From: Haloarcula halobia
GTDB taxonomy: Archaea; Halobacteriota; Halobacteria; Halobacteriales; Haloarculaceae
Reading direction: 5' to 3'
Assembly (NCBI RefSeq): GCF_029338255.1
Contig: NZ_CP119787.1
Location: 992,001 to 1,056,000 of the forward strand
Length of the DNA: 64,000 bases
The notes beneath the pieces are model-generated. The model worked only from the letters and a program-made list of their open reading frames with translations, was not told the DNA's origin and made no database searches. Of this stretch, positions 17,627-24,221 are shown piece after piece; positions within the stretch are counted from its first letter, which is position 1; each line of letters starts with the position of its first letter. Position numbers and translations under genes: made by a program.

Positions 17627-17788
17627 GTCCGTGGCAACACCCCCCGGGGTCAAAACCGTTGGGCCGCGCGCCGTCATTTTGCCGCCGTACGACGGTATCG
17701 GTCGCTCGGCGCCGATGCCGGTCTACTTTCACTTCCGCTCTCCACCCGTGGCTCGGCTTTAGTGCCGTCCGGGCGAAAGCGGTCGGCC

Positions 17789-18421
17789 ATGGAGACGCCA
17801 CCACTCGAACCGGGACTGACGTTCGTCGCCCAGCCCGACGGGCGCGGGGGGGTCGCGGCGCTCGCCCGGCACGCCGACGCCACCGAGACGCTGTGGGTCG
17901 ACACGCGCGGGGCGGCGTCCACTTACGCGCTGACCGCCGACGCCGACCGGAGCGCGCTCCGCGGGCTCCGGATCGCTCGCGCGTTCACGGCCCACCAGCA
18001 CCACGCACTCGTCCGCCGGGCCGTCGACGCCGCCACGGCGCGGACCGACCTCGTCGTCGCCCCGAACCTCGCGGCGCTGTACGAGGCGGCCGACGGCCCC
18101 GACGCCGAACTCGACCGCCTGTACGCGGCCACCTGCTCGCTGCTCTCCGCCCTGGCCGAGTCGACCGGGGTCCCGGTCCTGGCCGGCGCGCCCGACGCCA
18201 CAGACGCCCACCGCCAGACGCTCCGCGAGGCGGCCGCCCGCGAGGTGACCTGTCGACCGACCGACTTCGGCTACGCCGTCGACGCGCCGGGGTTCACCCA
18301 GTCGGGCTACTGGGGCGAGGGCTGGTGGCAGACGACCATCCCCTACTGGGTCGAGGTGTGTGGCGCCGCCGGGACGCCCGCACCGGCCACGGCCGACCCC
18401 GTGGCAGTCGCCGTCGAGTGA
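17789..18421 (+). CDS. RecA-fold-like protein lacking Walker A, in PolB2 operon
   Basis: The 210-aa protein has the flow of a RecA/RadA core: an early Gly-rich turn (PDGRGGVAAL) where a Walker A would be but without GKT/S, RIARAFTAHQHHAL, then a Walker-B-like strand (TDLVVAPNLAALYEA) and LSALAESTGVPVLAGA. This suggests an inactivated RecA-superfamily ATPase. It is the first gene of a tight operon (2-bp gap) with a small helical protein and a PolB2-type polymerase. Inactivated RecA paralogs paired with polymerases recall bacterial ImuA. The assignment is inference from pattern, not a database match. Confidence 0.6.
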   Translation: METPPLEPGLTFVAQPDGRGGVAALARHADATETLWVDTRGAASTYALTADADRSALRGLRIARAFTAHQHHALVRRAVDAATARTDLVVAPNLAALYEAADGPDAELDRLYAATCSLLSALAESTGVPVLAGAPDATDAHRQTLREAAAREVTCRPTDFGYAVDAPGFTQSGYWGEGWWQTTIPYWVEVCGAAGTPAPATADPVAVAVE

Positions 18422-18423
18422 CG

Positions 18424-18732
18424 ATGGGCCGGACGAACCCCACCTACCGCGACTTCCTCACCGACTACGAGGGGCGCTGGCGCGACTTCCGCCGGGCGCT
18501 GCGCCACGAGGCGGGTGAGGACTTCGACCGCCTGTTCGCCCGCGCCCGGCGCCACGCCGACGCGGCGGGTTACGCCAACGACCCCGACCGAGAACTGCTC
18601 GTCGTCGTGTCGATGCTGCTGGCCCACGAGACGGAACTCCGGCGGCTCCGGGAGCGCGTCGAGACCCTCGAGGCGGCCGCCGAGCGCGACGGGGCTCCCG
18701 AGATAGCCGCAGAGACCGACGAAGAGGCGTAA
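18424..18732 (+). CDS. Small helical protein in PolB2 operon
   Basis: The 102-aa protein is mostly alpha-helical, with an aromatic N-terminal motif (NPTYRDFLTDYEGRWRDFRRALR) and a C-terminal leucine/charged segment able to form a coiled coil (LLAHETELRRLRERVETLEAAAERD). It follows the RecA-like gene by 2 bp and precedes the polymerase gene by 6 bp. A linker or scaffold role between the two is plausible. I do not recognise a named family. Confidence 0.65.
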   Translation: MGRTNPTYRDFLTDYEGRWRDFRRALRHEAGEDFDRLFARARRHADAAGYANDPDRELLVVVSMLLAHETELRRLRERVETLEAAAERDGAPEIAAETDEEA

Positions 18733-18738
18733 TCGCCG

Positions 18739-20871
18739 ATGGCGTTCGCCTTCGACGTGACCGGCGACGGCGTCCGCGTCTGGCGCCGCGAATCCGACGC
18801 GGACGCCACCGTCCGGACCGACCGCGAGTTCCGCCCGTCGCTGTACGCCGCCGGCCCGGACGCGGCGCTCGCGACGCTCGACGAGCGCCTGGCCCGCGAC
18901 CCGAAGGTCGAGGCCACGGGCGTCGCCTCGCGGTTCACGTCGCTCCGGGACGACGCGCCCCGCGACGTCCTCCGGGTCGACACCGTTCCGGGGGCCGTCC
19001 GACAGGTCGCCCGCGAGATTCGCTGTGTCCACGAACCAGACCGATGGGCGCCCGGGACCGTCCGCCTGTTCAACGTGGACCTGGACCCCACGGCCCGCTA
19101 CTGCCTCGATACCGGGACGAGTCCGGTACCCGAGGCCGACCTCCGCTCGCTCTCGCTGTCGCTGCCGACCGCCGCGCTGGCCGACGGGGACCTGACGGCG
19201 CTGACCTGCGAGGGCGCCCCGCTCGTCGCCGAGTCCACCCGCACCGACGACACCGAACGGCGCGTCCTGCGGGCGCTCGGCGACCGCCTCGCCGCTGCGG
19301 ACCCCGACGTGCTGGTGCTCTCGAGTGCCGACCTCGTGCCCCTGCTCGCCGACCGGGCCGCCGACCTGGGCGTCGACTGCTCGCTCGGTCGGGAACCGGG
19401 CTATCGCAAGCTCGCCGGCGCGAACACCTACCAGAGCTACGGCCGGGTCGGTCACTCCCCCGCGAGATACGCGGTCCCGGGCCGGGCTATCGTCGACCGC
19501 TCGAACAGCTTCCTCTGGGACGAGGGCGGCCTCCCGGGCCTGCTGGACCTCGTCGAGCGCTCCTGGCTCCCCCTGCAGGCGCTCTCGCGGGCCTCCATCG
19601 GGACGGTGTTCACGGGCATCCAGATCCGCGAGGCGTTCGAGCGCGACGTGCTGGTCCCCTGGCGGGCCTGGGAACCCGAGGCGTTCAAGGCCGCCCGGAC
19701 GCTCCACGACGCCGACCGCGGCGGGTTCACGTTCGAACCAACGGTTGGGTTCCACGAGGACGTCGTCGAGGTGGACTTCGCCTCGCTGTACCCCCGCATC
19801 ATGTGCGAGCACAACCTCAGCCCCGAGACGGTTCGGTGTGACTGCCACGACACCGACGACGTGCCGGGCCTGGGCTACAGCGTCTGTGACACGCCGGGGT
19901 TCGTCCCCGCGGTCCTCCGTCCCATCCTCGACGACCGGGCCGAGATCAAGGCCCACCTCGCAGAGGCCGACCCCGACTCGGCCGAGGCCGACCGACTGGA
20001 GGCCCGCTCGGGCGCGCTGAAGTGGATTCTCGTGACCTGTTTCGGCTACCAGGGCTACCGCAACAGCAAGTTCGGGCGCATCGAGTGCCACGAGGCGATC
20101 AACGCCCACGCCCGGGAGATACTGCTGGACGCGAAAGACGCCCTCGAGGCCGGCGGCTGGCGCGTGCTCCACGGCATCGTCGACAGCCTCTGGGTGACGC
20201 CGCGCGTCGACGACCCGACCCCCATCGAGGCGCTCTGTGAGCGCATTTCTGCCGACGCCGGCATCCCGCTGGAACACGAGGACGACTTCACCTGGGTGTC
20301 GTTCGTCCCCCGGCAGGACGGCCGCGGCGGGTCGCTCACCAGCTACGTCGGGAAGGTCGCCGACCGCGACGCGTTCAAGATTCGCGGCCTCGCCGCCCGC
20401 CGGCGCTCGACGTGTCCGTTCGTCGAGGCCGCCCAGCGCGACCTCCTCCGGGTGCTCGACCGCACCCGCGACCCGAGCACGGTGTGTGACCGCCTCGCCC
20501 GTCACGTCGCTCGACTCGAAGCGGGGGCCGTCGACCCGGCCGACCTCGTCGTCCGGACGCGCATCTCGAAGTCGCTCGAGGGGTACGATCAGCGCTCTCG
20601 CCCGGTCGCGGCGCTGGAACGCTACCGCGACCACGGTATCGAGCGCCACCCCGGCCAGGACGTCCGGTACGTGGTCGTCGACGACGCCGTCCGCTCGCGC
20701 GAGCGGGTCCGTCTGGACTTCGAGGCCACCGACGACTACGACGTTACCTTCTACCGCGAGCGCCTCGTCCGGGCGGCCGGCGAAGTGGTCTCGCCGCTCG
20801 GGTGGGACCGCGACCGGGTTCGGGCCGCTCTTCGAGACACGCGCGATACGACGCTCGGGGCGTTCGAGTGA
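18739..20871 (+). CDS. polB2: PolB2-type family B DNA polymerase, motif C degenerate
   Basis: The 710-aa protein has family B landmarks: motif A VDFASLYPR (residues 345-353), motif B region ending GYQGYRNSKFG (436-446), and a palm/thumb C-terminus. In motif C, the usual YGDTDS reads HGIVDS (478-483), so the first of the two metal-binding aspartates is replaced by Ile. The exonuclease motif I region is also weak (NVDLDPTAR). PolB2 polymerases of archaea are described as having disrupted catalytic motifs. The gene closes a three-gene operon. It may act as a scaffold or accessory in DNA damage tolerance, or have unusual catalysis. Confidence 0.88.
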   Translation: MAFAFDVTGDGVRVWRRESDADATVRTDREFRPSLYAAGPDAALATLDERLARDPKVEATGVASRFTSLRDDAPRDVLRVDTVPGAVRQVAREIRCVHEPDRWAPGTVRLFNVDLDPTARYCLDTGTSPVPEADLRSLSLSLPTAALADGDLTALTCEGAPLVAESTRTDDTERRVLRALGDRLAAADPDVLVLSSADLVPLLADRAADLGVDCSLGREPGYRKLAGANTYQSYGRVGHSPARYAVPGRAIVDRSNSFLWDEGGLPGLLDLVERSWLPLQALSRASIGTVFTGIQIREAFERDVLVPWRAWEPEAFKAARTLHDADRGGFTFEPTVGFHEDVVEVDFASLYPRIMCEHNLSPETVRCDCHDTDDVPGLGYSVCDTPGFVPAVLRPILDDRAEIKAHLAEADPDSAEADRLEARSGALKWILVTCFGYQGYRNSKFGRIECHEAINAHAREILLDAKDALEAGGWRVLHGIVDSLWVTPRVDDPTPIEALCERISADAGIPLEHEDDFTWVSFVPRQDGRGGSLTSYVGKVADRDAFKIRGLAARRRSTCPFVEAAQRDLLRVLDRTRDPSTVCDRLARHVARLEAGAVDPADLVVRTRISKSLEGYDQRSRPVAALERYRDHGIERHPGQDVRYVVVDDAVRSRERVRLDFEATDDYDVTFYRERLVRAAGEVVSPLGWDRDRVRAALRDTRDTTLGAFE

Positions 20872-23486: not shown

Positions 23487-24221
23487 GTGACCGCCGAACG
23501 CGCCGTCGAGACGCTCTCGTACCCCACCCCAGCGACGGCGCTGGACCTCGTCGAACGCGGCCTCGAGCGCGGCGCGCTGGTGACGCTCTTTGGCACCTGC
23601 GCCGTCGAGTACGAGGGTCGCGCGAGCAGTTCGCTGGGGCCGGGCGACCGCCACGTGATGCTCAAGTCAGACGGCACGGCGCTGGTCCACACCGACGAGG
23701 GTCACCAGCCGGTCAACTGGCAACCGCCGGGGTGTGACCACGAGGCCACGGTCGTCGACGACGCGCTCGTCGTCACCTCCGACCGGTCGACCCCCGACGA
23801 GCACCTGGAGGTGGTCTTCGAGACGGTCGCCCACGCCGCTGCCTTCGACGGTACCGACCCCGAGGACCTCGCGCTGACCGGGACCGAGGCGGACCTGAAA
23901 GACCGTCTCCTCGCGGACCCCGAACTCGTCGAGGCCGGGTTCACGCCGCTGGCGACCGAACGGGAGACGCCAGCGGGCGCCGTCGACATCTACGGCGAGG
24001 ACGACGCCGGCCGGGCCGTCGTCGTCGAGCTGAAGCGCCGGCGGGTCGGGCCGGACGCCGTGGGCCAGCTCGACCGGTACGTGGGCGCGCTCCGGCGTGA
24101 CCTCCACGCCGACACGGAGGTCCGGGGCATCCTGGCCGCGCCGTCGGTCACCGACCGGGCGCGACAGCTGCTCGCCGAGAAGGGACTGGAGTTCGTGCCC
24201 GTGGAACCGCCGAGCGAGTAG
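23487..24221 (+). CDS. nucS: Endonuclease NucS / EndoMS
   Basis: The 244-aa protein has the N-terminal DNA-binding half and the C-terminal RecB-like nuclease domain of NucS. Active-site candidates are Asp167 (VDIYGEDD) and Glu181-Leu-Lys183 (VVELKRRRVG), forming the D-(D/E)xK arrangement. In archaea the enzyme cleaves both strands at mismatches (EndoMS) or flap-like ends. GTG start at 23487. It is convergent with a mutS gene, only 16 bp apart, so two independent mismatch systems meet at this point. Confidence 0.93.
   Translation: MTAERAVETLSYPTPATALDLVERGLERGALVTLFGTCAVEYEGRASSSLGPGDRHVMLKSDGTALVHTDEGHQPVNWQPPGCDHEATVVDDALVVTSDRSTPDEHLEVVFETVAHAAAFDGTDPEDLALTGTEADLKDRLLADPELVEAGFTPLATERETPAGAVDIYGEDDAGRAVVVELKRRRVGPDAVGQLDRYVGALRRDLHADTEVRGILAAPSVTDRARQLLAEKGLEFVPVEPPSE

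Follow-up and report, generated by a model that had tools for sequence, protein, structure and literature searches.

An iRadA-PPB2-PolB2 mutasome operon in Haloarcula halobia and two promoter forms among its haloarchaeal relatives

The operon and its genomic setting

We analyzed a 64,000-nt stretch of the Haloarcula halobia contig NZ_CP119787.1 (the window; positions 992,001 to 1,056,000). Three adjoining genes lie in it on the same strand, and the spacers of 2 and 6 bp given by the first-pass annotation match the ORF coordinates exactly. The features of the locus, in window coordinates, are as follows.

17724..17736, + strand: UV-B-box-like promoter element TACTTTCACTTCC, starting 65 nt before the iRadA start codon and resembling the element in PMC2556686
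17757..17762, + strand: TATA-like CTTTAG, ending 26 nt before the start codon, identified by eye
17789..18421, + strand: iRadA, 210 aa, a RadA/Rad51 paralogue without N-terminal domain and without Walker A
18424..18732, + strand: PPB2 (arCOG07300-like), 102 aa, N-terminus MGRTNPTYR, a motif described in PMC11791011
18739..20871, + strand: PolB2 family B DNA polymerase, 710 aa (NF004418, 886 bits; cut-off 692)
20170..20187, + strand: codons of motif C HGIVDS (residues 478-483), placed by alignment with Pyrococcus abyssi PolB and relatives
20851..20868, + strand: weak clamp-binding-like LxxF/Y motif in the PolB2 C-terminal TLGAFE, assessed by counting LxxF/Y in relatives

The cluster is an intact, ordinary representative of the iRadA-PPB2-PolB2 operon known from earlier work (Makarova 2014; Timinskas 2025), which was reported for archaea, haloarchaea included, in 2014 (PMC4104785) and whose products constitute the PolB2 mutasome (PMC11791011). 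The order iRadA-PPB2-PolB2 on a single strand is kept in nearly all haloarchaeal loci with sufficient flank, and this rules out that the three genes are not neighbors elsewhere. Of 391 genomes of the class, 381 gave a family B match, a figure that is not a PolB2 count because its weak matches include PolB3; iRadA-like genes were found in 219/391, with RadA-family genes possibly among the weak matches. The genome of the window encodes one intact PolB2, one Y-family polymerase, and, in a frame of 1045 codons, another family B polymerase that we take to be PolB3; no second iRadA was found in it.

Several further observations concern the surroundings of these genes. A NucS/EndoMS mismatch endonuclease gene lies 2.6 kb downstream of the operon (window 23487-24221). 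On the second contig of the same genome lies a decayed piece of PolB2 interrupted by stop codons (G000:C2:71502-71948, L051) and, ~5 kb past it, a relative of the stand-alone exonuclease described below (G000:C2:76429-77061). In another genome, a PolB2 without detectable iRadA or PPB2 neighbors (G138:C2:281563-286659; L006, L049) is accompanied by a complete operon on another contig.

Conserved motifs of PolB2, iRadA, and PPB2

The 710-aa protein scores 886.5 bits against the NCBIfam PolB2 model NF004418 and is assigned to family B by Pfam. Its HGIVDS, in which the first-pass annotation had noticed that Ile replaces a catalytic Asp, indeed aligns with YIDTDG of P. abyssi PolB, and the replaced residue is the first Asp of motif C. 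This replacement is the rule in the family: the first Asp is missing in all 118 distinct haloarchaeal PolB2 sequences surveyed (HGIVDS in 111, HAIVDS in 5, QAIVDS in 1, and HGVVDS in 1), so that a single damaged copy is ruled out. All 118 retain the Asp of motif A and the second Asp of motif C, 117/118 have the His, and an alignment of 23 PolB2 sequences shows no variation in the motif B Lys or across much of the palm. The exonuclease region can be aligned with its P. abyssi PolB counterpart, from which it differs in lacking the residues of DIET and NGDNF (Exo I and II). The D(K/R) motif, in a loop facing iRadA and PPB2, is D253-R254 in the window protein; in other haloarchaea its Asp is nearly invariant and is frequently followed by E, T, or G.

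The closest functional reference is Sulfolobus Dpo2, which likewise carries Ile at the position of the first Asp of motif C, lacks proofreading residues, and has the same partners; the window protein differs in being larger, in being haloarchaeal, and in being known here from sequence alone. With IID at this place in motif C, Dpo2 has about the activity of the replicase, does not proofread (PMC8764526), and is proficient at extending mismatches and lesion-opposed ends (PMC8764526, PMC11791011). Its authors suggested the invariant His or the Asp of D(K/R) as a substitute for the missing Asp (PMC8764526), and a later structural model assigned D(K/R) to PPB2 binding (PMC11791011). In S. islandicus, targeted mutagenesis was reported to depend on Dpo2 alone (PMC7390963). 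Even this model case is mixed, since another study of the same polymerase reports different phenotypes, its abstract giving 4-NQO sensitivity only for PolB3 loss (PMC8100216). Among haloarchaea, polB2 is dispensable in Halobacterium (PMC1906834) and was reported, in an unpublished note with the damage phenotype not stated, to be deletable in Haloferax (PMC7776575). We found no assay of any haloarchaeal PolB2 in the literature; judged by its homology, the enzyme is probably active.

These data bear on whether the polymerase is dead, as the first-pass annotation had it in describing a broken polymerase and hypothesizing a non-catalytic complex. Under such a reading PolB2 would bind primer-template and recruit or regulate other polymerases without synthesis of its own, as a damage-tolerance scaffold, which would suit the loss of the first motif C Asp, of the exonuclease residues, and of the ATP-binding motif of iRadA, and which agrees with the literature view of 2014, when inactivation was predicted (Makarova 2014; PMC4104785). 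However, a scaffold could do without the Asp of motif A, the Lys of motif B, and the second Asp of motif C, all of which are invariant, and Dpo2 polymerizes robustly with Ile at the same place. Because the Asp loss is moreover family-wide, we regard a non-catalytic complex as improbable, and the word "broken" does not suit a replacement that is found throughout a family whose other catalytic motifs are strongly constrained.

The C-terminus of PolB2 was also considered. LxxF/Y occurs in the last 14 residues of 110/118 PolB2 sequences, against 18 expected after shuffling, and clamp-binding motifs have been noted in a small fraction of PolB2 proteins (PMC11791011). No QxxLxxFF was found in the window PolB2 or iRadA. 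Clamp binding by the PolB2 C-terminus is only a possibility because that of the window protein lacks the Gln and the second aromatic residue of the canonical PIP box.

The 210-aa product had been described as a RecA-like protein lacking Walker A, and this description holds. On its own it returns nothing significant in Pfam and a sub-threshold match to NCBIfam RadB, and a search of the PDB with a profile built from 27 relatives recovers RAD51/RadA (E = 5e-10). Structure prediction (pLDDT 87.8) gives a fold that matches DMC1, RadA, and RAD51 (TM ~0.6); a lack of RecA similarity is thereby ruled out. GK[TS] is present in none of the 27 aligned iRadA sequences, the window copy included. The small helical protein of the earlier description is PPB2, whose N-terminal MGRT is invariant in 26/26 sequences.

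A stand-alone RNase H-fold protein is encoded between PPB2 and PolB2 in 8/32 loci of the plasmid-type clade (L040, L098, L114, L120, L128, L129, L130, and L131, with L040 and L130 being the same locus). These proteins carry DIET and mostly also YNG..FDLP exonuclease motifs, and proofreading in trans for a PolB2 with a dead exonuclease of its own is possible.

Promoter elements and linkage to orc1/cdc6

In Halobacterium, TTTCACTTTCA is located ~50 nt upstream of the UV-B-induced genes radA1, top6B, vng17, and vng280 (PMC2556686). The window element resembles this motif, which is common to radA and top6B, in sequence and in position (~50-65 nt before the start codon), but deviates from it at 2/11 positions, and the PolB2 operon was not named among the Halobacterium targets (Boubriak 2008, PMC2556686). 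It also contains ACTTTC, matching the hexamer ANTTTC of the Sulfolobus Orc1-2 damage element, DDRE (PMC9738581). Such a UV-response element suggests how the operon may be switched on.

Exact YACTTTCACTTYC sites number 10 in the genome of the window, some of them overlapping; the reversed-pattern control for this search was unusable because the pattern read backwards is nearly identical to itself. When a single mismatch is tolerated, each of the following genes has a site beginning 52-62 nt upstream of its start codon.

RadA
an Orc1/Cdc6
an HATPase protein, assigned to Top6B on the basis of its N-terminus
a DUF5790 protein
a small ORF upstream of DUF371 and endonuclease III (nth) genes

A strict match before the chromosomal Orc gene (L145) was found in only 3/30 loci, so we do not claim conservation of its UV box. 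Elsewhere in the genome, UV-box elements, one of them tandem, precede similar ORFs of 66-69 aa without Pfam match (G000:C1:2193512 and 2673068; L140, L141), and the sequence around the UV box is identical near both ends of the first contig (G000:C1:50263 and 3335329; L134, L143), representing a repeat or an assembly overlap.

Two elements recur just upstream of the TATA region of haloarchaeal PolB2 operons (L052-L131). TTTCA[CG]TT[CT]C, the UV-box form, occurs in 21/76 distinct operon promoters (shuffled mean 0.01), and [CT]GGAA-N3-5-[CT]GGAA, the GGAA form, in 39/76 (shuffled mean 0.6). The two were never found together (0/76), and 15 promoters have neither; plasmid-type operons have a close variant of the GGAA form. 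The window copy thus departs from other haloarchaeal PolB2 operons, among which the GGAA repeat is common, in having the UV-B-box-like element instead. We did not find the two elements or their exclusivity described in the open-access literature.

The promoter form goes together with the neighborhood of the operon. Where flanks allow, a same-strand orc1/cdc6 lies upstream of 23/29 distinct GGAA-form operons vs. 0/12 of the UV-box form (24/32 vs. 0/13 with near-duplicates included; Fisher's exact test, P = 2.8e-6). Linkage of orc1/cdc6 to PolB2 operons was known before (PMC4104785, PMC1906834). The window copy has no linked orc1/cdc6 within ~8 kb of the operon, in which it differs from the PolB2 mutasome as described in the literature. 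Shared ancestry weakens the association: the PolB2 tree contains only 3 to 5 independent promoter switches, at which orc linkage mostly follows the expected direction (sign test, P = 0.25), so that the relationship between promoter form and orc1/cdc6 is suggestive only.

Upstream of the linked orc genes themselves, the GGAA repeat was present in 24/50 (shuffled 0.18) and the UV box in 4; the repeat is often seen in promoters of the orc1/cdc6 genes that lie upstream of GGAA-type operons (L168, L171, L172; L043-L126). Being shared by the orc gene and the operon, it suggests that orc1/cdc6 near GGAA-type operons may be a co-regulated local regulator. One GGAA repeat (G230:C14:2448-2462, L152) lies 61 nt before a gene with WDIETTGF near the start of its product, which by this motif looks exonuclease-like and has no match in Pfam.

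The linkage to orc1/cdc6 also bears on a different origin for the locus, in which the operon would be a plasmid-derived or selfish module that mainly replicates an element and resides on the chromosome by chance. Many haloarchaeal PolB2 operons do occur on plasmids or small contigs with linked orc1/cdc6, polB2 is non-essential in Halobacterium (PMC1906834), and the second contig of this genome has the PolB2 relic and related exonuclease genes mentioned above. Yet the window copy sits on a 3.35 Mb contig without a linked orc, shares its promoter element with chromosomal repair genes, and has its polymerase retained in a close relative (the nearest named copy, from Halomicroarcula sp. SYNS111, with 92% identity). 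We consider such an origin very improbable.

A proposed mechanism and its regulation

We interpret the locus, with a probability of about 0.85, as an intact archaeal PolB2 mutasome operon with an active, proofreading-deficient extender PolB2, an iRadA that docks on it, and a bridging PPB2. The operon has all three parts of the mutasome in the order iRadA-PPB2-PolB2, the HxxxD motif C, the degenerate exonuclease, MGRT, and the Walker-less RadA; gene content, order, motifs, conservation, and RadA ancestry were all read from the haloarchaeal sequences. Relative to the mutasome as described, the window copy differs in the weak LxxF motif at its PolB2 C-terminus. Activity, the extension role, damage induction, and the requirement for targeted mutagenesis come from the Sulfolobus literature, and by homology the haloarchaeal protein would behave like its Sulfolobus counterpart.

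In the proposed mechanism, another polymerase would first insert opposite the lesion, the Y-family polymerase encoded in the same genome being a candidate, and PolB2 would then extend the mismatched or lesion-paired primer end. As a non-ATPase, RadA-like subunit, iRadA would dock onto PolB2 in the manner of successive RadA subunits in a filament, with a trimer of PPB2 bridging the two through its MGRT arm, as in the 1:1:3 model of the PolB2-iRadA-PPB2 complex (PMC11791011). The UV-B-box-like element would tie the window copy to the radA damage response. Damage tolerance, the role originally suggested for the three genes, is their likely role.

The likeness to bacterial ImuA-ImuB-DnaE2, also pointed out at first with the remark that the parts are unrelated, stands as an analogy between multi-subunit mutasomes and not as homology. 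Both are multi-protein systems with a RecA-like partner, and ImuA-ImuB-DnaE2 has a role in induced mutagenesis. In that system, however, the active polymerase belongs to the C family and is supported by an inactive Y-family protein, whereas in the window we expect activity of the polymerase itself. Membership in ImuAB-DnaE2 is ruled out, the polymerase being of family B and the other two proteins matching neither DnaE2 nor ImuB.

The crippled-looking motif C is a rule of the haloarchaeal family, and annotation of these proteins as dead polymerases is therefore unwarranted. What is added to the known operon is the dichotomy of its promoters. Tentatively, and with somewhat more doubt than confidence, we propose two exclusive regulatory forms: a GGAA form with an Orc1/Cdc6-type gene of its own, and an orc-less form, that of the window, in which a TTTCACTTYC box similar to the Orc1-2 element of Sulfolobus would have brought the operon into the chromosomal UV regulon of radA and top6B. 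To our knowledge, no LexA-like damage regulator has been identified in haloarchaea. Since a single conserved mutasome operon has two kinds of promoter element, of which one is common to radA and top6B, the question of the regulator becomes testable; the proposal, if true, would point to an Orc1/Cdc6-based damage response common to archaea and would offer a direct route to the haloarchaeal regulator.
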